Source of the DNA: a virus | IMG/VR virus record: IMGVR_UViG_3300006754_000087 | Span: 1 to 30,363 of that record | Strand: one strand, 5' to 3' | DNA length: 30,363 bases | Shown: one piece after another, positions 8,100 to 28,068 of the stretch | Position numbering within the stretch: position 1 is the stretch's first letter | How the letters are laid out: each line of letters starts with the position of its first letter | Notes under the pieces: model-generated | The model's database searches: none | What the model was told of the DNA's origin: nothing | What the model saw: only the letters and a program-made list of their open reading frames with translations | Position numbers and translations under genes: made by a program

Positions 8100-9281
8100 T
8101 TGCTTTTTCAAAGCCTTGATAGCAAACAAGAGTGTGTTGGGATATATGCCGATGGTCGTATCCATTATAAAGACTTCCCGACTTCTTTGACTAAAACATG
8201 GAGCTACTCCCCTATTTTATCAGGGGGTTCTGTTGAATACGCACAGATCTACACGGGGGGTCTCTCTTTGACCGATGCGTGCCCCACCAACCTCAGTGAT
8301 GAGTGGGCAGCATCACAGAAAAAACTTAAGGCTTTTTTGCGGTCTTTCAAAGAAGCTAAGATCTCGCTGTATGAGAACTGTTTTTTTGATTTGGTGCCCG
8401 AACGATTTTTATTGGAGTTCTTTTATTTGAAAAACGAAATTACCGCATCTGCACTTGAGAAGCACGCTCGCCCTCTGAACCATGATTTTCTAGCGTCGAT
8501 GGCTTCTCTCCTTCATGAAGTCTCCAGGCGCCCATTGAATATAAATAAGGGGGCACTGCGCCCTCTCTTGGGCACCGCCCGCGCTCGTGATTTTTGGAAA
8601 AAGTTAGACGCATCCGCGCATATTGATTATAATTTATTTGGCGCAAAGACCGGGAGACTGACCACCAAAAAAGGGAGCTTCCCAATTTTAACTCTTGACC
8701 GCAACCTGCGCCGCGTCTTGGAGCCCACGAACGATTGGTTTGTGGAGCTTGACTTCAACGCGGCAGAACTACGCACCTTGTTGGCTCTCAGCGGCTCTGA
8801 GCAGCCCGAAGGTGATATCCACGAGTGGAACATTGAAAATGTGTTTGGGGGCTTAGGAACGCGGGAGGAGGCGAAGAAGAGGGTGTTTTCTTGGCTTTAT
8901 AATCCCTCCTCCGAGGATGCTCTCCTTAGCAATGCATATGATCGAGACACTGTAATAAAGCAGTACTTTGATGGGCGAGCAGTTAAAACGATCTTTGATC
9001 GAACGATGGAGGTCGACCGCCGCCGCGCATTGAATTATATTGTGCAAAGCACGACAAGTGATTTGTTTTTAGACCGCGCCAACGCCGTCAGTCGCCTTCT
9101 GAAAGACCACCAGTCTCATGTTGCTTTTTTCATCCACGACAGCTTGGTGCTGGACGTGTGTGATGAGGAGAAGAGTGCCCTTGGCGCCCTCATAGAAGAG
9201 TTTGGTTCCACGCGGCTAGGAGACTATAAGGTTAATGTGAGTGCCGGAAAGAATTTTGGCGACATGAGGAAAATACGATGA
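8100..9281 (+). CDS. Short family A DNA polymerase (polymerase domain only)
   Basis: 393-residue DNA polymerase of the Pol I family, reduced to the polymerase domain with no 3'-5' exonuclease motifs. A TGRL motif lies at about 196-199, as in Pol I enzymes. Motif A is DFNAAELRTLLAL with Asp218. The O-helix (TREEAKKRVFSWLY) keeps the residues matching E. coli R754, K758, F762 and Y766 (here R255, K259, F263, Y267). Motif C reads H346-D347-S348 rather than the usual HDE: the metal-binding Asp is kept and the Glu is Ser. The start is a TTG with a purine-rich AAAAAAGAG about 8 bases upstream; no in-frame ATG gives a sensible N-terminus. Its stop overlaps the next gene (ATGA). With the separate FEN nuclease at 14006 it resembles a split Pol I, for gap filling or primer replacement. 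Confidence 0.85.
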   Translation: MLFQSLDSKQECVGIYADGRIHYKDFPTSLTKTWSYSPILSGGSVEYAQIYTGGLSLTDACPTNLSDEWAASQKKLKAFLRSFKEAKISLYENCFFDLVPERFLLEFFYLKNEITASALEKHARPLNHDFLASMASLLHEVSRRPLNINKGALRPLLGTARARDFWKKLDASAHIDYNLFGAKTGRLTTKKGSFPILTLDRNLRRVLEPTNDWFVELDFNAAELRTLLALSGSEQPEGDIHEWNIENVFGGLGTREEAKKRVFSWLYNPSSEDALLSNAYDRDTVIKQYFDGRAVKTIFDRTMEVDRRRALNYIVQSTTSDLFLDRANAVSRLLKDHQSHVAFFIHDSLVLDVCDEEKSALGALIEEFGSTRLGDYKVNVSAGKNFGDMRKIR

Positions 9282-9593: not shown

Positions 9594-10439
9594 GTGGATG
9601 TTGTGGTCGGATTGGGGTCCGTCGGTTGTGGGATTGCGGAGGGCTTTCGTAACTATCCCCAATATCAGGTTTATAAAATCAACACCGGGCTCAAGGGTTA
9701 TAAGAAAGATGGCATTTATAGTATGCCTAAGCAAGAAACCCATCAGGAGTACGAGGCAAATTGCCCCTCTTTCAAGCGTTTTTTTAAAGGGCTTGCTGGA
9801 AAGGAGCTTTTGTTCGTTGTGGCAGGAACAGATGAGATTTCCGGTGCCGCCTTGCAGATCCTAAAGACACTACACCCTATGTGTTCGGTGAGCATTTTAT
9901 ATGTGCAGCTTGATACCGAGCTTATTTCGGCAGAAGCCGCTCTCCAAGATCGTCTTACATGTGGAGTGCTGCAAGAATATGCTCGCTCGGGCGTCTTTAG
10001 GGGGATCTATTTGCTCAATCAACTCAACCTTGAGCTTATCTTAGGAGATCTCCCGCTCAAGGAACACCAGAGCCGTTTAGAGGCACTCGTCGTGAACACT
10101 GTTCATATGATTAATGTTTTTAAGCATACGCCCCCCGTGATCGATACAACTTCCAAGCTTCATGAACTGACCCGAGTGTGGACTTTTGGAACGGTTAACC
10201 TAGAGACTGGCGAGGAGAAGAAATTCTTTCCTTTATTGGCTCCCACAGAGAGGGTTTTTTACTATGCCATCCCTGAAGAGGACATTGATCGCGACCCCAA
10301 ATTACTCTCTAAGATCAAAAAACAAATTAAAGATGCAACTGATGAGGAGTGTCATGCCTCTTATATGGTTCATTCTACGAAATATGAAAAGCCATATGTG
10401 TATTGTCTATATGGCACCCGTTATGTACAGCCAGTCTAA
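9594..10439 (+). CDS. Divergent tubulin/FtsZ-like protein (putative)
   Basis: 281-residue protein beginning with a GTG; a GAGAGGG Shine-Dalgarno lies 9 bases upstream. The N-terminus (VVVGLGSVGCGIAEGF, residues 3-18) is a strand-glycine loop-helix as in the first nucleotide loop of FtsZ/tubulin or of a Rossmann fold. It is followed by a strand ending KINT, where FtsZ has VNTD. At 72-90 a strand (LLFVVAG) leads into AGTDEISGAALQILKTL, placed like the FtsZ strand and GGGTGTG loop, but the glycine-rich signature is degenerate. Then come VSILYVQLD, a helix with LQDRL..GVLQEYARSG, and a strand plus Asn-rich turn, the order seen in FtsZ. This is fold-level inference: it may bind GTP, or be a non-polymerising relative or plain Rossmann protein. 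Confidence 0.5.
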   Translation: MDVVVGLGSVGCGIAEGFRNYPQYQVYKINTGLKGYKKDGIYSMPKQETHQEYEANCPSFKRFFKGLAGKELLFVVAGTDEISGAALQILKTLHPMCSVSILYVQLDTELISAEAALQDRLTCGVLQEYARSGVFRGIYLLNQLNLELILGDLPLKEHQSRLEALVVNTVHMINVFKHTPPVIDTTSKLHELTRVWTFGTVNLETGEEKKFFPLLAPTERVFYYAIPEEDIDRDPKLLSKIKKQIKDATDEECHASYMVHSTKYEKPYVYCLYGTRYVQPV

Positions 10440-10459
10440 CTGAGAAGAGGAGAGGGAAC

Positions 10460-10942
10460 ATGGAGAGTGTGTGGGTGATAGTGCAAATTGTGTTGGGGCT
10501 TTTGTATGCCAATATGGCTGAGTGGGTTTTCCACAAATATGCCTTTCATGTGTTGGGGCGCAAGAAGAAGAGTATTTTTGCTTTCCATTGGTGGAGACAT
10601 CATAAGCTTTCGCGCCGACACGGGCATATTGATGAGGACTACTTAAAGCCTTGGGGCTCTGGGAAAGAGTTGTGGATTCTTCTAGGCGCAGGGCTTCTTC
10701 ACTCTCCTTTATTTTTGGTCGCCCCCGTGTTCACCTTAACTCTTTTCTATGGCATTTTCAATTATTACTATGTGCATAAGCGCTCACATACTGATGCAGC
10801 TTGGGCGAAGAGAAAACTGCGCTGGCACTACGAACATCACATGGGGAAGAACCAGAATAAGAATTTTTGTGTCACAAAGCCTTGGTTTGACTGGGTTATG
10901 GGCACGCGAGTTAAGTACGATTATCTTTTTGAAGAAAAATGA
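10460..10942 (+). CDS. Fatty acid hydroxylase / sterol desaturase-superfamily membrane protein
   Basis: 160-residue integral membrane protein with the histidine clusters of the fatty acid hydroxylase superfamily, which use a di-iron centre to hydroxylate or desaturate lipids. Visible clusters are H25-x4-H30, H43-x3-H47-H48 plus nearby His, HKRSH near 108-112, and HYEHH near 126-130. Hydrophobic segments lie at about 4-24 and 70-100. I start at the ATG at 10460 because AGAGGAGAGGG lies just upstream; a longer frame from 10403 overlaps the preceding gene and adds residues without family character. Related enzymes modify carotenoids, sphingolipids or fatty acids; the substrate here is unknown. 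It is an auxiliary metabolic gene candidate. Confidence 0.75.
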   Translation: MESVWVIVQIVLGLLYANMAEWVFHKYAFHVLGRKKKSIFAFHWWRHHKLSRRHGHIDEDYLKPWGSGKELWILLGAGLLHSPLFLVAPVFTLTLFYGIFNYYYVHKRSHTDAAWAKRKLRWHYEHHMGKNQNKNFCVTKPWFDWVMGTRVKYDYLFEEK

Positions 10943-11403: not shown

Positions 11404-12186
11404 ATGGCTATTGACCTAAAGAAGATGCGGGAGAAGCTCGCATCATTGCAAAATCGCGGAGGCGGTTCTTCACGTTCGAGTTTTTGGCGTCCTCAGGATG
11501 GCGATCAACAGATTCGTATTGTTCCCACTGCTGACGGTGACCCTTTCAAGGATCGTCACTTTCATTATAACTTGGGCAGCAATGCCGGCTTCTTGTGCCC
11601 CAAGAAGAATTACGGGGACTCATGTCCTGTGTGCGACTTTGCTTCCGCTCTCTATAAGGAGGGCACCGAAGAGAGTATGTCTATGGCAAAGAGCCTTTTC
11701 CCACGCCAGCGCTTTTTCTCTCCGGTTTTTGTCCGTGGAGAAGAGGAGAGCGGCATCCGTGTTTGGGGCTATGGCAAGATGGCTTATGAAAGCCTTTTGA
11801 GCCTTGTGTTAAATCCTGAGTATGGAGACATCACTGATGTGATGGAGGGGACAGACCTCAAGCTTACTTATGGTAAGCCCCCTGGTGCCAACTTCCCCGT
11901 TACCAAGCTGGTTCCGTCGCGGAAGACCTCCACGCTCTGTCAGGATAAGACTGAAGAAGAGTGTAATGCTCTCCTTGAGGGGATTCCTGATTTTACTGCG
12001 CTCTTTGAGCGCAAAACCACTGAAGACGTTCAGTCGATGCTAGACGCTTATTTGTCTGGGGACGAGTCCGCAGAGTCACGCTCTAATCAAACGGAGAAGT
12101 ATAATAATTCTACTCCTAATGATGATAAAAATGTTACACCCGCTGATTCTGTTGAGACCGCTTTTGCTGAGCTTCTAGGAGCTTGA
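11404..12186 (+). CDS. Single-stranded DNA-binding protein, T4 gp32-like
   Basis: 260-residue homologue of T4 gp32, which coats single-stranded DNA during replication and recombination. The N-terminal basic stretch (K6-R29, rich in Lys, Arg, Gly, Ser) matches the region used for cooperative binding. A zinc site reads H52...C65...C74-x2-C77, with nearly the same spacing as gp32's H64, C77, C87, C90. The core continues with QRFFSPVFV and an IRVWGYG strand. The C-terminal 55 residues are low-complexity (Asn, Thr, Ser, Asp, Glu) and end AFAELLGA, a likely tail for recruiting other replisome proteins. AAGGAG lies 7 bases before the ATG. A hairpin repeat follows the stop by 10 bases. Confidence 0.9.
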   Translation: MAIDLKKMREKLASLQNRGGGSSRSSFWRPQDGDQQIRIVPTADGDPFKDRHFHYNLGSNAGFLCPKKNYGDSCPVCDFASALYKEGTEESMSMAKSLFPRQRFFSPVFVRGEEESGIRVWGYGKMAYESLLSLVLNPEYGDITDVMEGTDLKLTYGKPPGANFPVTKLVPSRKTSTLCQDKTEEECNALLEGIPDFTALFERKTTEDVQSMLDAYLSGDESAESRSNQTEKYNNSTPNDDKNVTPADSVETAFAELLGA

Positions 12187-12255: not shown

Positions 12256-12690
12256 ATGAGTAAAGTAGAAGATGGCAACACTGTTAGTGTTCATTATGTA
12301 GGGAAGCTAGCAGACGGTGAACTGTTTGATAGCTCTCGTGATAGAGAAGCCCCCATTTCCTTCGAGGTCGGTGCCGGGACGATGATCCAGGGCTTTGAAA
12401 GCTCCGTTCTCGGTATGACAGTTGGGGAGACTAAGACAATTATCTTGACTCCCCAAGAAGCGTATGGGGAAAGCGATCCTACCCGCGTCCAGGCAGTACC
12501 TCGCACCGCCTTCGCCCCTCAGATGGAATTTGAGGAAGGTGCTGTAGTGCAGGGACATACTGATGTTGGGATGCCATTTATGGCTAAGATTCAGTCGTTT
12601 AGTGAGGATGAGGTCGTTTTGGACTTGAACCACCCGCTTGCAGGCAAGACTCTCAATTTTGAGATTGAGGTCGTGAGCATCGATAGCTGA
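12256..12690 (+). CDS. FKBP-type peptidyl-prolyl isomerase, SlyD-like
   Basis: 144-residue FKBP-fold protein that should catalyse cis/trans isomerisation of proline peptide bonds and may act as a chaperone. The FKBP half is split by an inserted flap, as in SlyD: VSVHYVGKLADGELFDSS, then GAGTMIQGFESSVLGM, then TIILTPQEAYGE, with the insert at about 72-120, and LNHPLAGKTLNFEIEVV closing the fold. The metal-binding His-rich tail of E. coli SlyD is absent. The ATG has AAGAAGAG upstream. It sits alone between the SSB and recombinase genes, bracketed by near-identical hairpin repeats. This enzyme is uncommon in phages; host protein control or folding of phage replication proteins are both open. Confidence 0.9.
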   Translation: MSKVEDGNTVSVHYVGKLADGELFDSSRDREAPISFEVGAGTMIQGFESSVLGMTVGETKTIILTPQEAYGESDPTRVQAVPRTAFAPQMEFEEGAVVQGHTDVGMPFMAKIQSFSEDEVVLDLNHPLAGKTLNFEIEVVSIDS

Positions 12691-12734: not shown

Positions 12735-12758
12735 TTTTACTAAGGCATGAGGGTGCAG

Positions 12759-13901
12759 ATGGCGAATAAGAAGAACAAGGGAGCAGGCAAGCTCTCTATC
12801 GCAGATATGCGTAAGGTTGTAAACAAGAAGGCTGGTCGTGAAGCCGCTTGGGATCTTAAAAAAGATAACCCTACTGAGGTGAACCAATTCATCTCCACTG
12901 GTTCACGATGGTTAGACAGTATTATTTGCCGTGGCAAACTCGCAGGCGTTCCTGTTGGCAAAGTCACTGAGATCGCGGGGCTAGAATCTACAGGTAAGTC
13001 TTTTTTGGCAGCGCAGGTCGCCGCCAACGCCCAAGAAGAGGGAATTGATGTTGTTTATTTTGATGCCGAGTCTGCCATCGATCCCGACTTCCTTGTAAAA
13101 GCCGGATGTGACTTAGATAAGCTACTTTATGTACAGGCGGAATCCGTCGAGTTTGTGCTGGAAACCATTGAAGAACTTCTGGGGAACGCAGAGAACCAGC
13201 TTTTGTTTATTTGGGACAGCTTGGCTCTGACACCGAGCATTACTGACATTGAAGGGGACTTTAACCCTCTAAGCAGTATGGCAGTCAAGCCACGAATATT
13301 ATCCAAGGGGATGGCGAAACTGGTACAGCCTCTAGCGAACGCTCAAGCTACGCTGCTGGTGCTGAACCAGCTTAAAACAAACATTACCCGTAGTGTGTCT
13401 GAGGCTCTTACCACTCCTTATTTTACGCCCGGTGGCAAGGCAATGCATTATACCTATAGCCTACGCATCTGGTTGACCGGGCGAAAAGCCAAAGCCTCGT
13501 TTATTGTAGACGACAAAGGTTTTCGCATCGGCTCAGAAGTCAAGGTGAAACTAGAGAAGTCACGTTTCGGAACCCAAGGTCGTCAATGTGCTTTTAAAAT
13601 TTTATGGGGTGCCGAAGTTGGCGTCCAAGATGAAGAAAGCTGGCTTGAGGCGATCAAGGGCTCAGATGCTCTAGTAAGCCGAGGCGCATGGTATGCACTG
13701 CTTTATGCAGATGGCACTGAGGAAAAGTTTCAAGCCGCGCATTGGCGAGAAAAGCTCCAGCAACCAAAGTTTAAGGATCGGGTACTAAGGATAATTGAAG
13801 AAGAGGTCATTATGAAATTTGAGACCCGCGAAGGCGAAGCTTCATCTTTTTATGAGATTGACCCTGAAGAATCTTTGACTGACGCCGACGCGGTAGTTTA
13901 G
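12759..13901 (+). CDS. uvsX: UvsX/RecA-like recombinase
   Basis: 380-residue strand-exchange ATPase of the RecA/UvsX family, which pairs single-stranded DNA with duplex in recombination-dependent replication and repair. The Walker A motif is GLESTGKS (K80 from this start). It is followed by VVYFDAESAIDPDF, a Walker B strand LLFIWDSLAL, and the LVLNQLKTNI segment before the DNA-binding loop region. An ATG at 12747 would add four residues, but its AAGG is only 1 base away. The ATG at 12759 has GAGG at a 6-base spacing, so I prefer it. The C-terminus is acidic, as in RecA proteins. The gene is followed by a hairpin that also holds a promoter. Confidence 0.92.
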   Translation: MANKKNKGAGKLSIADMRKVVNKKAGREAAWDLKKDNPTEVNQFISTGSRWLDSIICRGKLAGVPVGKVTEIAGLESTGKSFLAAQVAANAQEEGIDVVYFDAESAIDPDFLVKAGCDLDKLLYVQAESVEFVLETIEELLGNAENQLLFIWDSLALTPSITDIEGDFNPLSSMAVKPRILSKGMAKLVQPLANAQATLLVLNQLKTNITRSVSEALTTPYFTPGGKAMHYTYSLRIWLTGRKAKASFIVDDKGFRIGSEVKVKLEKSRFGTQGRQCAFKILWGAEVGVQDEESWLEAIKGSDALVSRGAWYALLYADGTEEKFQAAHWREKLQQPKFKDRVLRIIEEEVIMKFETREGEASSFYEIDPEESLTDADAVV

Positions 13902-14005: not shown

Positions 14006-15013
14006 ATGGAGAGCGAAGTGGACGCGAGCAAAAAGAAAAGAATAATGATTATTGATGCGCTGAATATGTATTATCGCGCCTATATTGTCGACCCCTCCCT
14101 TTCAACAAACGGACAACCCATCGGCGGGATTAAAGGGTTTTTTAAAATTTTGCAGAAGCTTCTGCGTGAAACAAAGCCCGATAAAGTTATAATTTGCTGG
14201 GATGGCGCTGGAGGCTCACGCAAGCGCAAGAGCGCCGTTAAAGACTATAAGGCGGGCAGGAAGCCTATTCGGCTCAACCGCGCAATCCGCAATCTCTCCG
14301 AGAATGAAGAGGTTGAAAACAAAGTGTGGCAGCAGACACGTCTGATGGAATATTTGAATTGTTTGCCCGTGGTCCAGCTTGTGTTGGCGAGCGTAGAAGC
14401 GGATGATATTATTTCATATGTTTGCCGCACACATGCCTCGCTCGCTGGGTGGGAAAAACTAATCATCTCCAGCGACAAGGATTTTTTGCAACTCTGCGAC
14501 GCCGAGACAGTGCTTTATCGCCCTATCCAAAAGGAGGCAATGAACACCCAGGGTGTCGTTCGTAAGTATGGCATTCACCCTGAGAACTTTGCTCTTGCCC
14601 GCGCTATAGCGGGAGATAAGTCGGATAATCTTCCTGGGATTGCCGGCGTGGGTCTTCCTACCATAGCAAAGCGTCTTCCCATGCTCAAGGAGTCTCGCAC
14701 CGTAACAATTGATGAGCTTATGGATTATTGTGAGACTGTCGACTCCAAGGTTGCCGCCTATGTCAAGATTGTAGAAGGCAGGGAAGTTGTAGAGTTGAAC
14801 TATAAGTTGATGCAGTTGTATGCTGCGAGCATACCAGTCCAGGGTAAAACCAAGATTGATTATGCCATAGACAACTGTGAGTATGCGCTTAATAAAACAG
14901 AGTTCATCAAAATGATGACTGAGGATGGTTTCGGTGAAGGAAACTGGAGCGCCCTTTTTCAGGTGATGAACAAAATAGCTTTTGACTTTGGTAATAACGG
15001 GGGCTCCCAATGA
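14006..15013 (+). CDS. FEN/RNase H-type 5'-3' exonuclease
   Basis: 335-residue flap endonuclease-type 5' nuclease (T4 RNase H / Pol I 5' nuclease family), which removes RNA primers and flaps. It shows the family's acidic metal sites: IMIIDALNMYYRAY (D17), ICWDG, EADDIISYV (E131, D133, D134), ISSDKDFLQL, and GDKSDNLPGIAGVG, the last also starting the helix-hairpin-helix DNA-binding element. The ATG at 14006 is chosen because AGGA lies 5 bases upstream; a 14-codon frame from the ATG at 14001 overlaps it. It overlaps the helicase gene by 4 bases (ATGA). It supplies the 5' nuclease that the short family A polymerase lacks. Confidence 0.9.
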   Translation: MESEVDASKKKRIMIIDALNMYYRAYIVDPSLSTNGQPIGGIKGFFKILQKLLRETKPDKVIICWDGAGGSRKRKSAVKDYKAGRKPIRLNRAIRNLSENEEVENKVWQQTRLMEYLNCLPVVQLVLASVEADDIISYVCRTHASLAGWEKLIISSDKDFLQLCDAETVLYRPIQKEAMNTQGVVRKYGIHPENFALARAIAGDKSDNLPGIAGVGLPTIAKRLPMLKESRTVTIDELMDYCETVDSKVAAYVKIVEGREVVELNYKLMQLYAASIPVQGKTKIDYAIDNCEYALNKTEFIKMMTEDGFGEGNWSALFQVMNKIAFDFGNNGGSQ

Positions 15014-16386
15014 CAGTTTCGAAGGAGCAGGTTGATTTTTCTCATTATGGGACAACCTTCCAAGAAAATTTAGTTACTCTTATTTTAGACGATCGCGTTT
15101 TCGCAGACCAGATCAATGAAGTGCTTGATATAGGCTTTTTAGAACTTAAGTATCTACAGGCTTTTGTCCGACACCTGTTTGATTATAGGCATAAGTATGG
15201 CACTCACCCCTCTCGAAGCACTTTTTCCACCGTATTGAAAGCTGGACTCACTGCCGAGAATGAGTTAGTCCGCAACCAGACATTAGATTTTTTCAATTCT
15301 CTTCCCGACGATGCCACCGAAGGCTCCGCGCACACCAAGGAAACTGCACTCGATTTCTGTAAGAAGCAAAAACTGAAGGGTGCCATGATGCGCTGCGTCG
15401 GGCTCATCAAGACATCTAGTTTCGATGAGATTAGCAAGGTTATGAATGATGCCCTGCTGCTTGGGGCAGACAGCAATCACGGTTATGATTATCTGGTGGA
15501 CTTTGAACAGCGCTTTGCTATCAAGGCTCGCAATCCCATAACCACAGGGTGGAACAAAATAGATGCAATTTGTAACGGCGGCTTAGGTGCTGGGGAGCTT
15601 GGTGTCGTCGTGGCTCCCACCGGAGCGGGAAAGTCCATGGCTCTCGTTCACTTAGGCGCTCAGGCAGTCATGGCAGGAAAGACGGTCATACACTATACGC
15701 TAGAGCTACAGGACACCGTAGTTGCTCTTCGTTATGACAGTTGTATTACGGGCGTTCCACTCACGGGGATCTTTAGCCATAAAGACGCAATTTATGAAAA
15801 GGTGCAAGAGGTGCCTGGGAGGCTTATTATTAAAGAATACCCTACCAAAACTGCCTCCACCGAAGTTATCAAAGCTCACCTTGAGCGACTTCAGCGCCAA
15901 CATGTCGACGTCGGGATGGTGATTGTGGATTATGGAGATCTTCTACGCCCCGTCAGCGCCCAGCGCGAAAAGCGTAACGAGCTAGAATCGATATATGAAC
16001 AGTTGCGTGCCATCGCTCAAATCTTTAATTGCCCCGTATGGACAGCCTCCCAGACTAATCGTTCGGGACTCAATGCTGAAGTTATTACTATGGAGTCCAT
16101 TTCTGAAGCGTTCAATAAGTGTTTCGTCGCAGATTTTATTTTTACAATTTCGCGCACTATCGAAGATAAAAGCAGTAATGAGGGGCGCATCTTTGTGGCG
16201 AAGAACCGCAATGGTCCTGATGGGATGGTGTTTCCCATATTCATGGACACTCGCAACGTACAGATCAAGGTCCTTTCTCAAAGCTTGCAATCCGTTGGAG
16301 ACCTTGTAGCCAAGTCTACAAAACAGCAAGCCGAGTCCCTAAGAGAGAAATACAAAAGCTTTAAGCATGACAAGAAGGATAATTAA
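15010..16386 (+). CDS. Replicative DNA helicase, DnaB/T4 gp41-like
   Basis: 458-residue hexameric helicase of the DnaB superfamily. The N-terminal 165 residues are helical, matching the part that meets primase in this family. The RecA-like motor follows: Walker A APTGAGKS (K208), a catalytic-Glu segment HYTLELQDT, Walker B VGMVIVDYGDLLRP, a WTASQTNRSG sensor strand, and a C-terminal KNRNGPDG arginine/loop region. It should unwind the fork on the lagging strand. It overlaps the nuclease gene by 4 bases, and its stop directly abuts the next ATG. No primase or helicase loader was found in this window. Confidence 0.92.
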   Translation: MTVSKEQVDFSHYGTTFQENLVTLILDDRVFADQINEVLDIGFLELKYLQAFVRHLFDYRHKYGTHPSRSTFSTVLKAGLTAENELVRNQTLDFFNSLPDDATEGSAHTKETALDFCKKQKLKGAMMRCVGLIKTSSFDEISKVMNDALLLGADSNHGYDYLVDFEQRFAIKARNPITTGWNKIDAICNGGLGAGELGVVVAPTGAGKSMALVHLGAQAVMAGKTVIHYTLELQDTVVALRYDSCITGVPLTGIFSHKDAIYEKVQEVPGRLIIKEYPTKTASTEVIKAHLERLQRQHVDVGMVIVDYGDLLRPVSAQREKRNELESIYEQLRAIAQIFNCPVWTASQTNRSGLNAEVITMESISEAFNKCFVADFIFTISRTIEDKSSNEGRIFVAKNRNGPDGMVFPIFMDTRNVQIKVLSQSLQSVGDLVAKSTKQQAESLREKYKSFKHDKKDN

Positions 16387-18267
16387 ATGAGCAACAAGAA
16401 AGATATTTCCATAGACATTTTGTCCAACATCACCGTTCACATGAAATATGCCCGCTACTTGGAAAAGAAGCAACGTCGTGAAACTTGGCGTGAAATTACT
16501 AATCGTAATAAAAATATGCATATTAAAAAGTACCCTCACTTGCGAGAGGAGATCAACGAGGCGTACAAGCTTGTTATGAAAAAGCAAGTGCTTCCTTCGA
16601 TGCGCTCAATGCAGTTTGCCGGCAAATCTATTGAAGTTGCCCCCAATCGTGTTTTCAACTGTGCCTACCTTCCCATTGACGACTGGCGCTCTTTTAGCGA
16701 AGTGATGTTTCTTTTATTGGGGGGTACTGGAGTTGGGTATTCGGTTCAGCGTCACCATGTGGAAAAGCTGCCTGAGATTCGCAAGCCTAATCCCGAGCGT
16801 TCACGACGTTTTTTGATTTCAGATTCAATTGAGGGCTGGGCAGATGCAGTAAAGGCTTTGGTGAAGTCTTACTTTTATGGTGGGTCCACTCTTCGTTTCG
16901 ATTTTAGTGATATTCGCCCCAAGGGGGCGAAGCTTATAACTTCTGGCGGCAAAGCCCCAGGTCCCCGTCCGCTGCAAGAGTGTCTCGTAAAGCTCGAAGG
17001 CTTGTTGAGCGAGAAAGAAGACGGAGACCAGCTAGAGCCCGTCGAGGTTCACGATTTGATTTGCCATGTGGCAGACGCGGTTTTAGCTGGAGGTATCCGC
17101 CGCGCAGCGCTCATCTCACTGTTCTCGGCAGATGATAATGAGATGCTTTCGGCAAAGTCCGGCTGTTGGTGGGAGACCAACCCACAACGCGGTCGTGCAA
17201 ATAATTCGGCGGTCTTGCTTCGACATCGGATTACAAAGGAGTACTTTCTGAATTTATGGTCTCGCGTCCAAGCCTCCGGCGCAGGCGAACCGGGCTTTTA
17301 TTTTTCTAACGATAAAGATTGGGGCACCAACCCCTGCTGTGAGATCGGTCTTCGCCCCTATCAATTTTGCAATTTGACAGAGGTTAACGTTAGCAACGTC
17401 AAAGATCAGCATGATCTAGAGACTCGCGTCCGCGCCGCCGCTTTTTTAGGAACCCTTCAAGCAGGCTATACTGATTTTCACTATCTCCGTCCCGTATGGC
17501 AGAGAAATACTGAAAAAGAGGCTCTCATTGGGGTGTCAATGACCGGCATTGCATCGGGCACTGTGCTCGGAGAGGATATAAGTTTATCCGCCGCCGCCCA
17601 AGTGGTGAAAGCCGAGAACAGACGTGTCGCGGCTCTTATCGGAATTAGCCCCGCCAGCCGTACCACTTGCGTGAAGCCAGCGGGAACCACTTCTCTAACA
17701 CTAGGAACAAGTTCGGGCATCCATGCTTGGTTTGATCGATACTATATTAGACGTGTCAGGGTCGGGAAGAATGAAGCCATTTATAATTATTTGTTGAGCG
17801 CCGCACCGGAGATGATTGAAGATGATTATTTTCGCCCGCATGACACCGCAGTTATTTCTGTCCCTCAGTCGGCTCCTGACAATTCTATTTTGCGTACTGA
17901 GTCTGCATTGTCTCTGCTCCGACGTATAAAAAAGATCACAACTGAGTGGGTCAAGCCGGGACACGTTAAAGGGCAAAATACTCATAATGTATCTGCCACT
18001 ATTTCAGTCCGTCCTTTTGAATGGGAGGACGTGGGAGAGTGGATGTGGGATAATCGCCATGTCTATAACGGCTTGGCAGTCCTTCCTTATTCAGAAGCAG
18101 ATCACACCTATGTTCAGGCACCTTTCGAGAGTTGCTCAAAGGAAACCTATGAAGCCTTATATGACTCTCTCGTTGCTTTGGACCTCACCGACATCCGCGA
18201 GGATACAGATGACACAGACCTCCAAGGCGAGCTTGCGTGTGCCGGCGGCATGTGTGAAATTAAATGA
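16387..18267 (+). CDS. nrdJ: Class II (adenosylcobalamin-dependent) ribonucleotide reductase, monomeric RTPR-type
   Basis: 626-residue enzyme reducing ribonucleotides to deoxyribonucleotides using a B12-derived radical. It follows the monomeric Lactobacillus leichmannii type: NRVFNCAYLP (C92, matching C119), LLLGGTGVGYSVQ, PCCEI (C317 and E319, matching radical Cys408 and Glu410), C328 (matching C419, same 11-residue spacing), and a C-terminal CAGGMC (C618/C623, matching the C731/C736 shuttle pair). The Gly between Cys and Glu in the usual PCGE motif is Cys318 here. It is about 110 residues shorter than the bacterial enzyme (739). It starts immediately after the helicase stop, so dNTP supply is co-expressed with the fork. 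Oxygen independence and B12 need are family knowledge. Confidence 0.9.
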   Translation: MSNKKDISIDILSNITVHMKYARYLEKKQRRETWREITNRNKNMHIKKYPHLREEINEAYKLVMKKQVLPSMRSMQFAGKSIEVAPNRVFNCAYLPIDDWRSFSEVMFLLLGGTGVGYSVQRHHVEKLPEIRKPNPERSRRFLISDSIEGWADAVKALVKSYFYGGSTLRFDFSDIRPKGAKLITSGGKAPGPRPLQECLVKLEGLLSEKEDGDQLEPVEVHDLICHVADAVLAGGIRRAALISLFSADDNEMLSAKSGCWWETNPQRGRANNSAVLLRHRITKEYFLNLWSRVQASGAGEPGFYFSNDKDWGTNPCCEIGLRPYQFCNLTEVNVSNVKDQHDLETRVRAAAFLGTLQAGYTDFHYLRPVWQRNTEKEALIGVSMTGIASGTVLGEDISLSAAAQVVKAENRRVAALIGISPASRTTCVKPAGTTSLTLGTSSGIHAWFDRYYIRRVRVGKNEAIYNYLLSAAPEMIEDDYFRPHDTAVISVPQSAPDNSILRTESALSLLRRIKKITTEWVKPGHVKGQNTHNVSATISVRPFEWEDVGEWMWDNRHVYNGLAVLPYSEADHTYVQAPFESCSKETYEALYDSLVALDLTDIREDTDDTDLQGELACAGGMCEIK

Positions 18268-18617: not shown

Positions 18618-18905
18618 GTGAGTTTTGTGCCAATGAATCGCCACCTGCTGGTTCGCCCAGCCGGAGCTTACGGGGACGAAGAAACCACTGGGATTATCCT
18701 CCCCCAAGCCTACATAAACGCACAAGAACATGTGTCTGTAGAGGTGCTCTCGGTTGCTGCCGACTGCACTGCTCTTAGTCAGACACCGTTGCAGGGCTGT
18801 ACCATAGTGGTGCCTAAAAATATGATTTTAGAAATTAGTACCGGCACTGTGACTTATAATTTGATACAGGAAAATTATATTCTTGGGGTCATCACCCCTT
18901 CTTAG
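18618..18905 (+). CDS. GroES/gp31-like co-chaperonin
   Basis: 95-residue protein resembling the GroES fold: MNRHLLVRP at the start, TTGIILPQ, a variable mobile-loop region, VEVLSVAADC, GCTIVVPKNMI, and a closing NYILGVI strand. T4 gp31 replaces host GroES so that GroEL can fold the major capsid protein, and this may do the same. The start is GTG, directly after the previous TAA, with AAGAAGAG about 10 bases upstream; the ATG at 18633 lacks a Shine-Dalgarno. The sequence is divergent and short, so partner choice is not established. Confidence 0.6.
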   Translation: MSFVPMNRHLLVRPAGAYGDEETTGIILPQAYINAQEHVSVEVLSVAADCTALSQTPLQGCTIVVPKNMILEISTGTVTYNLIQENYILGVITPS

Positions 18906-19708: not shown

Positions 19709-22700
19709 TTGACTGAAGATCGGACAACAAGTACAATCCCGTTTGTGGGACTACACGCACACAGCGTGGCAGGCTCTCCATTTGATGGTCTAGGCTACCC
19801 CTCTGAGCATATGGACTACGCCTATCAGAATGGGATGGATGCCCTGGCTCTTACCGACCATGGCAACTGCAATGGGCTCGCTTATCAAGTACTCCATGCA
19901 AAAAAGATGCACTCGGAGAGCCGCGAGTTTAAGCCTATTTTTGGCGTGGAAGCATACTTTTTGCCCTCTATTGAGGAGTGGAAAGAGACTTATGAGCAAG
20001 CTAAGTTAGAAAAAAAACTAGCTAAGAAGATAAAGGACGCTGGGCAAGGTGGCGCGGTTGTAGAAGATGAAAACCGAAGCGTCAAGAGCGCCATAAACCG
20101 CCGACGCCACCTTATCCTGTTGGCTCAGAACCAGACGGGTCTTTCTAATATTTTCAAATTAGTGTCTCAGTCTTATGCTGAAGGGAATTTTTATCGATTC
20201 CCGAGGCTGGATTATGCTTTGCTAGAAAAATATAATGAAGGGATCATTGCTTCTTCCGCCTGTCTTGGAGGGGTATATGCCGGCAGCATGTGGGAGAACC
20301 AAGAAGAGGGTTCGGAAGCAGTATTAGAAGCCATGCGGGATACTACGCGCAGAATGCTAGCCATCTTCGGAGACCGCTGGTACGGAGAACTTCAGTGGAA
20401 CTCCATTCCTGAGCAACATCAATTAAATCAGTATATTATTCAGGTATGCAAGGAATTTGGCGTCAAGCTTATTTCCACTGCCGACAGTCATTATCCGTCC
20501 CCCGAGCTATGGAGGGACCGCATTCTTTATAAGAAGCTGGGGTGGCTAAGCAGCTATTCCGCCGATGAAGAATTTTCTCTTCCCAACTCCGTAGATGAAG
20601 TTGGCTATGAACTTTATCCCAAGAACGGCGATCAGATGTGGGAATCCTATAAGAGATATGCCGCCGAAGCTGCCATAGAATATGACGACTCTTTGGTTCT
20701 GGAGTCTATCAAGGAAACTTGCATCATTGCACATTCTCGTATTGAAAGCTTTTTGCCTGACAATACCGTGAAGCTTCCCTCTTTTGTTGTGCCCGAAGGA
20801 GAGGAGCCAGAGGCTGCTCTGGTTCGTCTTAGCGTTGTAGCACTCAAGGAGATGCTTCGCCGACGCACAGATATCACGCCGGACATGGCTCAGCAATATG
20901 CTGCCCGCCTCAAAGAGGAACTCCAGATTATTAATGATCGGGGCTTTTCTAAATATTTTTTGACGATGAGCGCCATTGCAGACAAGGCTGTCCAAAACCA
21001 ACTCACTGGACCGGGTAGAGGCTCGGCAGCAGGCTCGCTAGTATCTTATGCATTGGGCATAACACAAGTAGACCCTATCAAGTATGGTCTTTTGTTTAGT
21101 CGCTTTTTGCGTAAGGACGCCACCGATTATCCTGATATTGACTACGATGTTTCGGATCCGATGGCGCTGAAAGATTTTTTGGCGAAAGAGTGGGGAGAAA
21201 ACACTGTAGTCCCGATCTCTAATTGGAATACGTTACAGCTCCGCTCCTTGATCAAGGACATCTCAAAGCTATATCAGATTCCGTTTACGGAGGTAAATGC
21301 AGTTACCGGTCGAATGCTCTTTGAAGCAACCCCGCTTGCCAAAGCAAAGCATGGGATCAAGGCAGGCGTCTATGTACCAACCTTTACCGAGGTTATGGAA
21401 TATAGTAGCACTCTCAAAGCCTTTCTTGAGAAGTACCCCCAAGTAAAAGTTCACGTTGAAACATTGTGTGGGCAAGTGCGCTCTTGCTCCCGTCACGCCG
21501 GGGGCGTCGTTATTGGGGAGAATTTAGATGAACAAATGCCCCTGATTGTCTCTGGTGGCGTCCGCCAGACACCGTGGTCAGAAGGGCAGCATGTGAGGCA
21601 CTTAGAGCCGCTTGGGTTTATTAAGTTTGATATCCTTGGCTTAGGAACACTGCGGATGATCGAGGGCGCAATTCGACATGTTTTAAAGAGGCACCATGAT
21701 ATGCCCCACCCCACGTTTGACGATGTACGCCAATTTTATAATAACCAGCTTCATCCCGATGTTCTCAATCTTCATGATGCTAGTGTCTATTCAGAGATCT
21801 TCCATCAGGGTGCGTGGGCAGGTGTTTTTCAATTTACTGAATCTGGCGCACAGTCTTTTTGCACGAATGTGAAGCCAAATAGTATTATTGATATTGCTGC
21901 GGTCACTTCCATTTTTCGCCCTGGTCCGCTTTCAGCCGGCGTGGATAAGAAGTTTATTGAAGCCAAGGAGCATCCCGCCCGCATTAAGTATGTACATGAT
22001 ATTGTGCGTGATGTTACTTCTGAGACCTATGGTTTTTTGATTTTTCAAGAGCAAATTGCCACCTTGGCTCATCGTTTAGGAAAGGGCATTTCTCTTGATG
22101 AGGGAAACCTCCTTCGAAAGTTGTTGACCAAAAAGGGCACCGGAAAAGGTGCTGAGGCAAAGCAGCGCATTTATAATAAGTTTGTTGAGGGGTGTGCCGA
22201 TAAAGGCATCTCGCGCCCCGACGCAGATGAGATTTGGTCTACCTTTGAGTTCTTCTCAGGGTATGGCTTCAATAAATCACATGCGGTATCCTATAGCATC
22301 TTGTCCTATCAGTGCGCGTGGCTGTTACACTATTACCCTGCGGAGTGGTCAGCAGCATTTTTGGATAAAGAGCCTGAACGTCGAAAAGAAAAGGCTATCA
22401 ACTTAGTCAAGCACTTGGGCTTTAAGGTAAAGTCTCTTGATATCAACACGTCGGGTGTAGTGTGGGAGATTGCACCGGACAACCGGACGTTAGTACAACC
22501 TCTTACATCTATTAAAGGTCTGGGTGACGCTGCCATCAAGCAGATTATAGATCACCGCCCTTTTGATTCCGTGGACGAATTTTTGTTTGACGAGGAGATT
22601 ATTTATTCCAAGCTGAACAAGAAGGCTATCGACGCTCTAGTTCGGAGCCAGGCACTCGACTGCTTGATGGATGAAAGGTTTTCTGGCATGAAGCATTTTT

Positions 22701-23158
22701 GGTCAGCAGTTGCGGTCGACCGCCCTAAGAACCGCAAGAAGCTTGCAGAGAACATTGAACTGTATCGCCCTGAAGGTGATTTTTCGACTGAAGAGAAGAT
22801 CGAATATCTGGTATCACTCACCGGAGCGTTCCCCATGGCTTTGGTTATGAGTGAGAAGGTCCGCACAGAGCTTACTGCCCACGGTGTCCCACCATTAGGG
22901 GAGTTTGACACTGATATCGGTGCCGCTTGGTTTATTCCCCGTGAAGTTATAGAGAAGAGAACCAAAAAGGGGAAGCTTTATTGGATCTTGCGGGTCATTG
23001 ATTCGACAAGCACCACCACGTCTATTAAGTGCTGGGGGGTAAAGCCAGAGATTGATGTGGTGCATATTAACCACCCCTACATGGCAAAGCTAGATTATGA
23101 TGCCCAGTGGGGCTTTAGTACGCGAAGCTTACGCAGAAATTTTAGGCTATTAGCGTAA
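19709..23158 (+). CDS. Family C DNA polymerase (DnaE-like) with intact PHP domain
   Basis: 1149-residue replicative polymerase related to the bacterial Pol III alpha subunit (E. coli 1160). The N-terminal PHP domain keeps all nine expected metal ligands: H16, H18, D26, H51, E81, H134, C185, D259, H261. E. coli DnaE has lost several of these, while Thermus-type enzymes that keep them have 3'-5' exonuclease activity. The palm carries GPGRGSAAGS and the catalytic acids D476 and D478 (PDIDYD) with D641 (KFDILGLG). Fingers motifs include SCSRHAGGVVIG, FRPGPLS, FQEQIA and FNKSHAVSYS. A helix-hairpin-helix-like LTSIKGLGDAA lies near 930-940, and an OB-like segment closes the protein. The start is TTG: the first in-frame ATG falls after the PHP HxH motif. 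It is probably the main replicase. Confidence 0.95.
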   Translation: MTEDRTTSTIPFVGLHAHSVAGSPFDGLGYPSEHMDYAYQNGMDALALTDHGNCNGLAYQVLHAKKMHSESREFKPIFGVEAYFLPSIEEWKETYEQAKLEKKLAKKIKDAGQGGAVVEDENRSVKSAINRRRHLILLAQNQTGLSNIFKLVSQSYAEGNFYRFPRLDYALLEKYNEGIIASSACLGGVYAGSMWENQEEGSEAVLEAMRDTTRRMLAIFGDRWYGELQWNSIPEQHQLNQYIIQVCKEFGVKLISTADSHYPSPELWRDRILYKKLGWLSSYSADEEFSLPNSVDEVGYELYPKNGDQMWESYKRYAAEAAIEYDDSLVLESIKETCIIAHSRIESFLPDNTVKLPSFVVPEGEEPEAALVRLSVVALKEMLRRRTDITPDMAQQYAARLKEELQIINDRGFSKYFLTMSAIADKAVQNQLTGPGRGSAAGSLVSYALGITQVDPIKYGLLFSRFLRKDATDYPDIDYDVSDPMALKDFLAKEWGENTVVPISNWNTLQLRSLIKDISKLYQIPFTEVNAVTGRMLFEATPLAKAKHGIKAGVYVPTFTEVMEYSSTLKAFLEKYPQVKVHVETLCGQVRSCSRHAGGVVIGENLDEQMPLIVSGGVRQTPWSEGQHVRHLEPLGFIKFDILGLGTLRMIEGAIRHVLKRHHDMPHPTFDDVRQFYNNQLHPDVLNLHDASVYSEIFHQGAWAGVFQFTESGAQSFCTNVKPNSIIDIAAVTSIFRPGPLSAGVDKKFIEAKEHPARIKYVHDIVRDVTSETYGFLIFQEQIATLAHRLGKGISLDEGNLLRKLLTKKGTGKGAEAKQRIYNKFVEGCADKGISRPDADEIWSTFEFFSGYGFNKSHAVSYSILSYQCAWLLHYYPAEWSAAFLDKEPERRKEKAINLVKHLGFKVKSLDINTSGVVWEIAPDNRTLVQPLTSIKGLGDAAIKQIIDHRPFDSVDEFLFDEEIIYSKLNKKAIDALVRSQALDCLMDERFSGMKHFWSAVAVDRPKNRKKLAENIELYRPEGDFSTEEKIEYLVSLTGAFPMALVMSEKVRTELTAHGVPPLGEFDTDIGAAWFIPREVIEKRTKKGKLYWILRVIDSTSTTTSIKCWGVKPEIDVVHINHPYMAKLDYDAQWGFSTRSLRRNFRLLA

Positions 23159-23177: not shown

Positions 23178-23660
23178 ATGATTATTGAATATACAAAAGT
23201 CCGTCCGAACGTTATTGCGCCAACTCGCGCCAACCCAAGTGATGCCGGCTTGGATGTGTTTTATTGTCCAGCGGAACAAAAGGTGCCTCCCGCAGTTGAA
23301 ATTTTACCAGGGGAGTCCAAACTGTTTCAGACTGGCTTGCGCTTCGGCGTCCCTCACGGTTATATGCTGGAAGTGAAAAACCGCTCTAGCGTTGCAGCAA
23401 AGAGAAGCCTCCTCGTTGGGGCATGTGTTATTGACTCTGGGTATGATGGTGAGGTGTTCATCAACCTTCATAACGTCGGCAATAGCACCCAGTGGGTTTA
23501 CCCTGGGGCAAAGATTGCACAGATGGTAATGGTGCCTGTAATTACTTTTCGAGCGGTTGAGTGTGCTGACGGCGGCTTGTATGCCCGTGAGCCCATCACG
23601 ATAAGCGATCGAGGCGAAGGCGCTCTGGGTTCTACGGATGCGAAGAAGGCAGGAGCCTAA
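23178..23660 (+). CDS. dut: dUTPase (deoxyuridine triphosphatase)
   Basis: 160-residue trimeric-type dUTPase that hydrolyses dUTP to dUMP and pyrophosphate, keeping uracil out of DNA and feeding dTMP synthesis. The five family motifs are visible: DAGLDV (D22-V27), NRSS (68-71), ACVIDSGYDGEV with D86 and Y89, GAKIAQMV, and a C-terminal RGEGALGST, which closes over the active site. AAGGAG lies 9 bases before the ATG. Its stop overlaps the next gene (TAATG). No thymidylate synthase was seen in this window. Confidence 0.93.
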   Translation: MIIEYTKVRPNVIAPTRANPSDAGLDVFYCPAEQKVPPAVEILPGESKLFQTGLRFGVPHGYMLEVKNRSSVAAKRSLLVGACVIDSGYDGEVFINLHNVGNSTQWVYPGAKIAQMVMVPVITFRAVECADGGLYAREPITISDRGEGALGSTDAKKAGA

Positions 23661-23935: not shown

Positions 23936-24416
23936 GTTATGGAGCAAAGATAGTGGCGCAGTGGGCTTTAGTTCAAAAAGCGCAGACTGGGAAACCCCCC
24001 AGGGCTTCTTTGATAAGCTCAACAAGAAGTACCATTTTACCCTAGACCCGTGTGCCACCGCCCAGTCGGCGAAGTGTGCTACATATTTTACGGAGAAGGA
24101 TGATGGTTTGAATCAAAGTTGGGAGGGGCATACCGTTTTTATGAACCCTCCTTATGGGCGAGAGATCAAGAACTGGATCGAAAAGGCATATCGCGAATCG
24201 CAAAAAGCTGATACAACGGTAGTTTGTTTGATCCCGTCGCGCACCGATACTAAGTATTGGCACGAGTATTGTATGAAAGCACGGGAGATCCACTTTGTGA
24301 AAGGTCGCCTCAAGTTTGGAGGATCAAAGAACGCCGCCCCTTTCCCGTCCGCAGTCGTTGTTTTTAGTTCCACCCCAAGCTATCACACGCTGAAGCTTGT
24401 GCGGGGTGAGTCATGA
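23925..24416 (+). CDS. dam: Phage-type DNA N6-adenine methyltransferase
   Basis: 163-residue methyltransferase of the phage Dam-like group, which transfers a methyl group from S-adenosylmethionine to adenine N6. It has DWETPQGFFDKLNKKY at the start, LDPCAT, and the catalytic NPPYG (N74-Y77), followed by IPSRTDTKYWHEY and GRLKFGG. There is no separate target-recognition domain, usual for this short family, so its target site cannot be read. A strong AGGAGG lies 6 bases before the ATG. It may protect phage DNA from restriction or time transcription and packaging; no partner restriction gene is nearby. Confidence 0.9.
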   Translation: MSAKLWSKDSGAVGFSSKSADWETPQGFFDKLNKKYHFTLDPCATAQSAKCATYFTEKDDGLNQSWEGHTVFMNPPYGREIKNWIEKAYRESQKADTTVVCLIPSRTDTKYWHEYCMKAREIHFVKGRLKFGGSKNAAPFPSAVVVFSSTPSYHTLKLVRGES

Positions 24417-25474
24417 GCGACAATAGGTTGAAACTTCTTACAATACCCGACGCTCTGACTTATGATGACGTATTGTTGGTCCCTCAGTATAGCGACATTG
24501 AGAGCCGCCAAGAAGTTAATTTACATAGCGCCCTTGACGAGGTTCTGAACATCAAGCTTCCGATCATTTCGAGCCCCATGGACACGGTGACCGGCACTGA
24601 AATGGCAGCGACTTTAGCGGTCTTGGGTGGCTTGCCCATCGTGCATCGCTACAATTCAGTCCCTGAGCAAGCGCAAATTATTAAGGATGCAATAGAGATG
24701 ACCGACCTTATCACCGCTCCAATAATCGGAGCCGCCGTGGGTGTCTCAGGGGACTTTGAGGATCGAGCCGCCGCAGCCTATGATGCCGGCGCTCGCGTGA
24801 TCTGCGTGGATGTTGCTCACGGTCATCACATTTTAGTTAAGCGTGCGCTGGCACGTCTACGGCGGTTTGGAAATGACTTGCACATCATGGCTGGGAACGT
24901 AGCTACTCTCGCAGGCTTCAACAGCTTGGCGGATTGGGGCGCAGATAGCGTGCGTTGTAATATTGGCAGCGGCAGTTGTTGTACTACAAAAATCCAGACA
25001 GGTCACGGCGTCCCTGGGCTACAGACGATTCTTGACTGTGCCGCTTCCGATCGTGATGCGAAGATTATTGCCGATGGCGGAATCCGCAATTCAGGAGATA
25101 TTGTGAAGGCGCTCGGCGCAGGCGCAGACTTCGTCATGTTGGGTTCAATGTTGGCGGGGACTAACGAAACCCCCGGTCGTACAATTGTTCACGCCGATGG
25201 CACTCAACGAAAAGTCTATCGCGGCATGGCATCGAGACAAGCCCAAGAGGATTGGCGCGGTCGTGTATCGAGTCTAGAAGGGGTTGCTACCACTGTCCCA
25301 TGTAGGGGTCCCGTTGGGAACATAATTGACTTCGCTACGCAGGGGATTCGAAGCGGATTGTCTTACAGCGGCGCTCGAACCATCCAAGAGTTCCAAGCAA
25401 AAGCAAGGTTTGTTCGTCAAACTAATGCAGGGCAACTTGAGTCCGCGCCTCATATTCTTCAAGGACCTGGCTGA
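24413..25474 (+). CDS. IMP dehydrogenase / GMP reductase-family enzyme without CBS domains
   Basis: 353-residue TIM-barrel enzyme of purine nucleotide interconversion. It opens with LTYDDVLLVPQYS and continues with ISSPMDTVTG, CVDVAHGH, MAGNVAT, a catalytic loop GSGSCCTTK (catalytic Cys190), IIADGGIRNSGDIVKALGAGADFVMLGSM and YRGMAS. The length and lack of a CBS pair match GMP reductase (about 347), and the flap (about 270-292) is short, as in GMP reductase, without an evident Arg-Tyr dyad. The C-terminal GIRSGLSYSGARTI..F and ESAPH stretches are IMPDH-like. Which direction of purine metabolism it serves is unresolved. It overlaps the methyltransferase gene by 4 bases. Confidence 0.85.
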   Translation: MSDNRLKLLTIPDALTYDDVLLVPQYSDIESRQEVNLHSALDEVLNIKLPIISSPMDTVTGTEMAATLAVLGGLPIVHRYNSVPEQAQIIKDAIEMTDLITAPIIGAAVGVSGDFEDRAAAAYDAGARVICVDVAHGHHILVKRALARLRRFGNDLHIMAGNVATLAGFNSLADWGADSVRCNIGSGSCCTTKIQTGHGVPGLQTILDCAASDRDAKIIADGGIRNSGDIVKALGAGADFVMLGSMLAGTNETPGRTIVHADGTQRKVYRGMASRQAQEDWRGRVSSLEGVATTVPCRGPVGNIIDFATQGIRSGLSYSGARTIQEFQAKARFVRQTNAGQLESAPHILQGPG

Positions 25475-27351: not shown

Positions 27352-28068
27352 ATGACAAAGAAGACGAAAAAGAAAGGCAGCAAGAAAAAGACAACAGTGG
27401 AAGAGCAGCCGACGACATCGCCAGAGGACGCACCGGAGGAGGGATTAGAAGGACTAGAACTCCCCCCTTATATGATCTTACAGATGCCGGCGGAACCCCG
27501 GTCTGCCGCTGCCCCTTCCCCTATTCGGGTCACAGGGCTTGTGGGAGATGTGACGGAAGACAAGGCGGCAGACGTCCTCAGTGCCATTATTAGTCTTATG
27601 GATAAAGGGCGCAGGGAAACTATGAACGAGGATGGAACCGTTGAGGTGTCTTATCTCCCCTTTGAAATTGTGGTCTCCACCAACGGCGGCTCGGCTTCAG
27701 AAATGTTTTCACTCTTTGACTTGATAAACTATGCCAAAGAGAGATATGAGGTGCGTACACTCGGCTTGGGTAAGGTGATGTCAGCGGGGGTCCCTCTCCT
27801 TGCGGCAGGCACTAAAGGCTCCCGCCGCATTGGGCGCAATTGTCGTGTGATGCTTCACTCGGTCGTAGCTGCCTTTGGGGGCTCCATGCACGATCTCGAT
27901 GCTGAGATGGACGAGGTGCGGTGGGCACAGGAAAAGTATATTGATGCTCTTGTGCAAACCACGGATATGACCAAGGCTTATATTCGCAAGCTTCTTAAAA
28001 GAAAAGTAAATGTTTATCTGACGGCTCAGGAGGCTGTGGATCTAGGCATCGCAGATGAGATAATCTGA
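27352..28068 (+). CDS. ClpP-like serine protease
   Basis: 238-residue protein of the ClpP/crotonase-fold protease family. Residues 1-50 are a Lys-rich then acidic linker. The ClpP core begins near 60 with GDVTEDKAADVLSAI, then IVVSTNGGSASEMFSLFDLI, the nucleophile Ser144 in GKVMSAGVPLLAAG, and His169 in RVMLHSV. Where ClpP has its catalytic Asp (in ERDxF), this protein has Asn220 (KVNVYLTAQEA), so the third triad residue is changed. The ending EAVDLGIADEII is ClpP-like. A Clp ATPase partner is not in the window. It may be a prohead maturation protease as in some phages, or a host-Clp interfering subunit. AAGGAG precedes the ATG; the stop overlaps the amidase start (TGATG). Confidence 0.85.
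   Translation: MTKKTKKKGSKKKTTVEEQPTTSPEDAPEEGLEGLELPPYMILQMPAEPRSAAAPSPIRVTGLVGDVTEDKAADVLSAIISLMDKGRRETMNEDGTVEVSYLPFEIVVSTNGGSASEMFSLFDLINYAKERYEVRTLGLGKVMSAGVPLLAAGTKGSRRIGRNCRVMLHSVVAAFGGSMHDLDAEMDEVRWAQEKYIDALVQTTDMTKAYIRKLLKRKVNVYLTAQEAVDLGIADEII

Follow-up and report, generated by a model that had tools for sequence, protein, structure and literature searches.

A family C DNA polymerase with a complete PHP metal site beside T4-type replication genes in uncultivated viral DNA

The window analysed here is the whole of a 30,363-base stretch of viral DNA, IMG/VR record IMGVR_UViG_3300006754_000087, which is classed as linear and is probably a fragment of a genome. On its plus strand, positions 19709–23158 hold a dnaE gene with a TTG start, which codes for a family C DNA polymerase of the DnaE form with 1149 amino acids. 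The assignment was made from Pfam, alignment with a PDB entry, an AlphaFold2 model and structural matches. Pfam detected the PHP domain (1.8e-28), DNA_pol3_alpha (1.9e-50), the finger domain (1.1e-30) and HHH_6 (7.6e-12). The PHP domain spans residues ~10–350, the Pol3 core ~350–900, the helix-hairpin-helix part ~904–990 and the OB fold ~1055–1148; residues 1055–1149 gave OB-type structural matches. The PHP domain, the Pol3 core with its DxD...D acids, the helix-hairpin-helix part and the OB fold are thus all present in the order that characterizes the DnaE form. The hallmark of PolC, a DnaQ-type exonuclease inside the PHP domain, is missing from the protein, in which Pfam found no RNase_T domain.

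The gp32-, UvsX- and gp41-type genes lie 3–8 kb upstream of dnaE on the same strand. They code for a gp32-like single-strand DNA binding protein (11404–12186; PF08804 4e-12, phrog_1192 2.5e-23), a UvsX-like recombinase (12747–13901; phrog_97 3.8e-52) and a gp41/DnaB-type replicative helicase (15010–16386; phrog_19 2.6e-68). Profile matches therefore support each of the three T4-type parts named in an earlier note on this DNA. A stand-alone 5'-3' exonuclease/FEN-like nuclease (14006–15013, plus strand; PF02739 1.4e-30) is encoded just before the helicase. Further upstream on the plus strand, 8100–9281 codes for a small family A polymerase (PolA) of 393 amino acids that consists of the polymerase domain only (PF00476 3e-13) and has intact motifs A (ELDFNAAELR), B (R255-K259-F263-Y267) and C (HDS). 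As it has the polymerase domain alone, it agrees with the wording of the earlier note, by which the family C enzyme is the only full-length replicase in view. The note had also seen no separate proofreading exonuclease; Pfam scans of the 30 predicted proteins likewise gave no DnaQ, DEDDy or family B polymerase (PolB) match. The analysis confirms that a full-length family C replicase, its PHP domain intact, is encoded beside T4-type genes.

The nine residues of the PHP metal site, H16, H18, D26, H51, E81, H134, C185, D259 and H261 (codons 19754..20491, plus strand), stand at the positions claimed for them, and each is paired with a ligand of Taq Pol III alpha (2hpi) in a residue-by-residue alignment. 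Similarly, the polymerase acids D476, D478 and D641 (codons 21134..21631, plus strand) are where they had been placed and pair with the acids of the Taq enzyme. The ligands read HHDHEHCDH, in agreement with HHDHEH[C/H]DH, the motif by which a PHP domain is called active (PMC12926913). A scan of IMG/VR for relatives yielded at least 600 stretches, nearly all related to the window DnaE, and 80 loci (65–88% identity) with near full-length copies. None of the nine ligands varied among 28 aligned sequences (65–89% identity). In an alignment of marine viral relatives, 80 of 81 rows had the complete motif; the other one, truncated at the N-terminus, was without the first ligand only. The three polymerase acids were likewise kept in relatives. 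The invariance of the nine-residue site in these alignments argues that it is not due to chance. Between the window and its relative L002, non-synonymous divergence (pN) was 0.058 in the PHP region and 0.062 in the Pol3 core, with synonymous sites saturated; on these similar values, the PHP region appears to be constrained about as much as the polymerase core.

DnaE1 of Mycobacterium tuberculosis has a trinuclear zinc site, and its D23N and D226N mutants are exonuclease-dead (PMC5636811). These two residues correspond to D26 and D259 of the window DnaE. In the same enzyme, a long loop beside the PHP site helps to guide the primer into it (PMC5636811). The loop between E81 and H134 of the window DnaE has 52 residues, is longer than in Escherichia coli and is partly disordered in the structure model. 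This model, built by AlphaFold2 with 29 sequences, had a mean pLDDT of 87.7 and a pTM of 0.82. The earlier note had proposed a superposition on Taq Pol III alpha; in overall fold, the model can be superposed both on the Taq enzyme (3e0d; Z 38.9, 3.3 Å, 895 residues) and on DnaE1 of M. tuberculosis (5lew; Z 43.5, 3.6 Å, 839 residues, PHP domain included). Structural matches of the PHP part include RNase AM and EndoQ as well. The C-terminal domain was not seen in the window DnaE, which stops at the OB fold with its end aligned to residue 1099 of 1160 in the E. coli protein. In addition, no residues of the window DnaE align to the internal beta-clamp motif of E. coli (QADMF, 920–924), and it has no canonical QxxLF-type motif. 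Between its helix-hairpin-helix and OB parts, residues 1015–1019 hold a conserved N-[IV]-[ED]-L-[YF], which, speculatively, could be a degenerate clamp motif.

As the window is probably a fragment, the genome-wide absence of genes was judged from relatives. The two largest, G001 (205,517 bp) and G002 (184,913 bp), have 118 proteins in common and are circularly permuted: both ends of G001 adjoin each other in G002, and G001 therefore appears close to a whole genome. It carries T4-superfamily genes for a major head protein, portal, prohead protease (Peptidase_S77), T4_baseplate and terminase, with matches to phrog_138 and phrog_213, and additionally encodes a primase, PhoH and GroEL. G001 thus has the capsid, portal, protease and baseplate genes of the T4 superfamily, while the window itself has tail-side genes only. 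The gene neighbours and order around dnaE are retained in the large relatives.

Profile searches of 12 related contigs of up to 205 kb detected no PolB, no RNase_T/DnaQ, no Rv2179c/DexA-type exonuclease, no PolA-type 3'-5' exonuclease (DEDDy) and no gp45-type clamp. Neither the family B polymerase nor the separate exonuclease that the earlier note had weighed against its own proposal was therefore found in them. Also, the six relatives searched for them yielded neither a beta clamp nor a clamp-loader AAA protein; the positive control, Microcystis phage Mel-JY01, matched the loader family. A PF00476 scan had indicated that the small PolA was missing from G001, but the profile had missed it: the protein is present there at 43% identity. 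On these searches, the absence of canonical alternative proofreaders and replicases from the relatives is strong but not final.

The small PolA occurs in both G001 and G002, with its polymerase motifs kept. Three phage lineages keep the module order small PolA, gp32, UvsX, 5'-3' exonuclease and gp41, and each of them has its own type of full-length replicase. Because the small PolA is common to phages with other full-length replicases, it is probably a part of the shared core and not the replicase, and DnaE would fill the variable slot. With intact polymerase motifs, however, this PolA could be thought to copy the genome, as could the host replicase, which would leave DnaE a repair or translesion polymerase; extra DnaE2 enzymes are frequent in bacteria (PMC3919608). 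Such a role for DnaE is improbable. The PHP domain of DnaE2 is usually broken (PMC3919608), and the small PolA is without an exonuclease domain and holds the same place in phages with PolB or a long PolA, where a replicase role for it is unlikely. Moreover, the 12 relatives have no detected PolB, and the only PolA matches traced in relatives are to the small one.

A tree of 61 sequences, made by a quick method and with some long branches elsewhere, included named phages and a sample of DnaE1 and DnaE2 from bacteria. In it, the 17 rows of the window clade are joined by a sister clade (37–39% identity) in a single viral-only branch (21 rows, support 100, long stem of 1.08). This branch is separate from those bacterial enzymes and from the named phage branches, and does not group with bacterial DnaE1. 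The phylogeny that had been called for in the earlier note thus puts the window DnaE apart from both, and on this sequence tree it is a deep viral-only lineage. Family C is otherwise bacterial, and phage copies have often been ascribed to transfer (PMC3919608, PMC7824862), so that dnaE might be viewed as recently acquired from a host and as not specially linked to the replication module. Recent capture is disfavoured by the well-supported viral-only branch, in which no cellular dnaE is nested, and by the gene neighbours and order retained in the large relatives; it is very improbable.

Four matches to the window DnaE in bacterial genomes, at 62–67% identity, appear to be phage contigs binned into metagenome-assembled genomes. 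A WOR-3 metagenome 'chromosome' (L108, CP070664.1 1–12655) also has a polymerase of the clade (67% identity) right at its start, likely a chimeric assembly or a provirus. In a conserved-motif scan of IMG/VR, 83 of the 118 family C matches listed (70%, a rough share) belonged to the window clade, and 11 of the 118 listed loci were at 35–55% identity, the range of the sister clade. Scans for distant relatives with MTATph1 and PcaP2EGY as queries gave few loci.

Among named phages, the complete PHP site is usual. Family C was matched by tblastn in 1,361 of 50,697 phage records, and the nine ligands were intact in 17 of the 20 named phage family C polymerases examined. A complete site as the surprise of this locus was therefore dismissed. 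The three that have lost ligands are from E217 (PB1-like), FoX7 and SSU5. All three of these phages have a DnaQ-type exonuclease in the genome, compared with five of the 17 with an intact PHP site, and in E217 and FoX7 the DnaQ gene adjoins the polymerase gene. That a degenerate PHP domain accompanies DnaQ is only suggestive (hypergeometric 0.049), as two of the three degenerate cases are related. According to PMC9069017, which cites it, a 2016 survey counted only eight Pol III genes among 1,574 viruses. Set against those eight, the 1,361 phage records and the at least 600 IMG/VR stretches indicate that the view of family C as marginal in viruses needs revision. Three other viral family C polymerases, L210, L276 and L220, are 1513–1693 amino acids long, and their best family C match starts 500–740 residues in; the long N-terminal part is a candidate for a PolC-like or fused domain.

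This pattern of ligand loss bears on the possibility that DnaE replicates while proofreading is supplied in trans, by a host DnaQ/epsilon or an unrecognised phage nuclease, the PHP domain being kept for folding or another phosphoesterase role. In E. coli, the PHP domain serves structurally and binds epsilon (PMC3919608, PMC3666897). G001 carries PD-(D/E)XK and RNase H-like PF04308 nucleases with unclear roles, and profile searches can overlook genes, as happened with its PolA. However, loss of PHP proofreading tends to bring loss of the ligands, as in alpha-, beta- and gamma-proteobacteria, DnaE2 and DnaE3 (PMC3919608), and E217, FoX7 and SSU5 have lost theirs, whereas the window lineage keeps all nine invariant. 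Proofreading in trans is thus unlikely, although it has more in its favour than a repair role.

The best reading of the locus, which we hold to be fairly probable from the sequence, is that DnaE is a replicase that proofreads through its own PHP domain. It is the best supported because the ligands are all conserved, no canonical alternative was found and the D23N and D226N mutants of M. tuberculosis DnaE1 provide a precedent. Several points weigh against it. An intact PHP motif does not prove proofreading, and the exonuclease activity of this protein is a prediction; the phage might borrow a host DnaQ. Profile searches are an imperfect guide to absence, given the true PolA that was overlooked in G001, and the window contig probably covers only part of a genome. 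Other nucleases are encoded in G001, namely a PD-(D/E)XK nuclease, an SbcCD-like fusion and the RNase H-like PF04308 protein. Finally, with no clamp or clamp loader detected in the relatives searched, processivity is left unexplained. The gene for the PF04308 protein (1.8e-25) lies at G001:180683–181153 (L091:683–1153) and occurs in G002 as well; its product is a candidate trans proofreader.

Under self-proofreading by DnaE, the dnaE gene would encode the main replicase of a large uncultivated lineage of T4-superfamily phages, in the slot that PolB or an exonuclease-bearing PolA holds in related phages. The gp41-type helicase would open the template and the gp32-like protein would cover it, DNA would be synthesized at the D476/D478/D641 site, and UvsX would assist replication primed by recombination. 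Wrongly incorporated 3' ends would be excised by the PHP domain at a zinc-type trinuclear site with nine ligands, where D259 would be the counterpart of D226, the catalytic residue in M. tuberculosis DnaE1. In primer removal and gap filling, the small PolA would probably act with the separate 5'-3' exonuclease as a split Pol I, and processivity may come from a host clamp or be attained without a clamp. A widespread T4-related marine lineage seems to have swapped the PolB of T4 for a family C DnaE and kept the rest of the T4-style kit. A bolder version, to which we give rather less than even credence, is that a dominant marine lineage of the T4 superfamily replaced PolB, clamp and loader by one PHP-proofreading family C polymerase working without a phage clamp, the replicase slot being exchangeable among three polymerase families. 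Two ideas become testable in this system: that a PHP exonuclease alone can secure the fidelity of a phage replisome, and that T4-type accessory proteins can serve a family C polymerase when there is no phage clamp.

Other genes accompany the module. A ribonucleotide reductase, B12-dependent by its Pfam domain, is encoded on the plus strand at 16387–18267 and has its best relative in Mel-JY01 (phmmer 5e-271). A dUTPase gene (23178–23660, plus strand; PF00692 5.7e-14) lies directly downstream of dnaE and is present at 73 of 80 relative loci. At 9594–10439, a 281-aa protein with no Pfam or PHROG match has an FtsZ/TubZ-like look; its model, although of low confidence (pLDDT 52), matches FtsZ and TubZ structures (E 3e-7), and its gene stays beside the small PolA in G001 and G002. 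It is possibly a phage tubulin in the replication module. A 95-aa protein at 18618–18905 matches Cpn10/GroES weakly (PF00166 0.0085, short of the curated cut-off) and possibly forms a phage chaperonin pair with GroEL (PF00118, in G001). Host-type accessory genes around the module code for proteins like fatty acid hydroxylase (10403–10942), FKBP (12256–12690), IMP dehydrogenase (24413–25474) and ClpP (27352–28068).

Compared with known systems, the window DnaE shares with M. tuberculosis DnaE1 and Taq Pol III alpha the domain order PHP-Pol3-HhH-OB, the nine PHP ligands and the three polymerase acids, but is only ~24–31% identical to them over the aligned parts and is phage-encoded. The DnaE form is also that of other phage enzymes (Tonenili, Streptomyces phages, Geobacillus phage GBK1 and the Bacillus phage G group). 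The window DnaE differs from these in being at most ~31% identical to the best-listed named phages and in its separate tree branch. Jumbo phages of the phage G group (group 3.2) have a PHP-bearing Pol III, UvsX being a trait of group 2 (PMC7824862). The enzyme of group 3.2 is of the same kind, but Bacillus KLEB27-3 falls outside the window branch in our tree, which is without phage G itself. In the Mycobacterium phage Tonenili (Bixzunavirus), a family C polymerase has a UvsX-like recombinase, DnaB and primase nearby. The 'unusual replisome combination' of the earlier note therefore stands in part: a complete PHP site is usual and UvsX with family C is known from Tonenili, but a T4-type module with DnaE is distinctive. 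The gp32-UvsX-exonuclease-gp41 module was absent from the other family C phage neighbourhoods inspected, a subset of the records. In short, the enzyme type is known, and its setting is distinctive and apparently abundant. Delftia phage phiW-14, considered as a T4-like phage that might have family C, was dismissed as a parallel, as no family C was found in it. DNA polymerases of uncultivated Far-T4 phages are mentioned in PMC4360716 and PMC13037479, with no family C in the sections drawn upon.

The window has gp32-, UvsX- and gp41-type proteins in common with the bacteriophage T4 replisome (gp43, gp32, UvsX, gp41 and gp44/62/45), and G001 has T4-type head, protease, portal and baseplate genes. 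In contrast, the gp43 PolB, gp44/62 clamp loader and gp45 clamp were not detected in the relatives searched, by profile scans that can overlook genes. Mel-JY01 has the small PolA, gp32, UvsX, 5'-3' exonuclease, gp41 helicase and ribonucleotide reductase in the order of the window, but its replicase is a PolB with its own exonuclease domain, it has a clamp loader, and no family C was found in it. Similarly, Flavobacterium phage immuto has the small PolA, gp32, recombinase, 5'-3' exonuclease and DnaB helicase in the order of the window. It differs in having, besides the small PolA, a longer one that bears a 3'-5' exonuclease domain and is likely its replicase; no family C was found there either. 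Together with these two phages, the window lineage offers a natural comparison of one replication core with three unrelated replicases, of families A, B and C, each with its own proofreading solution.

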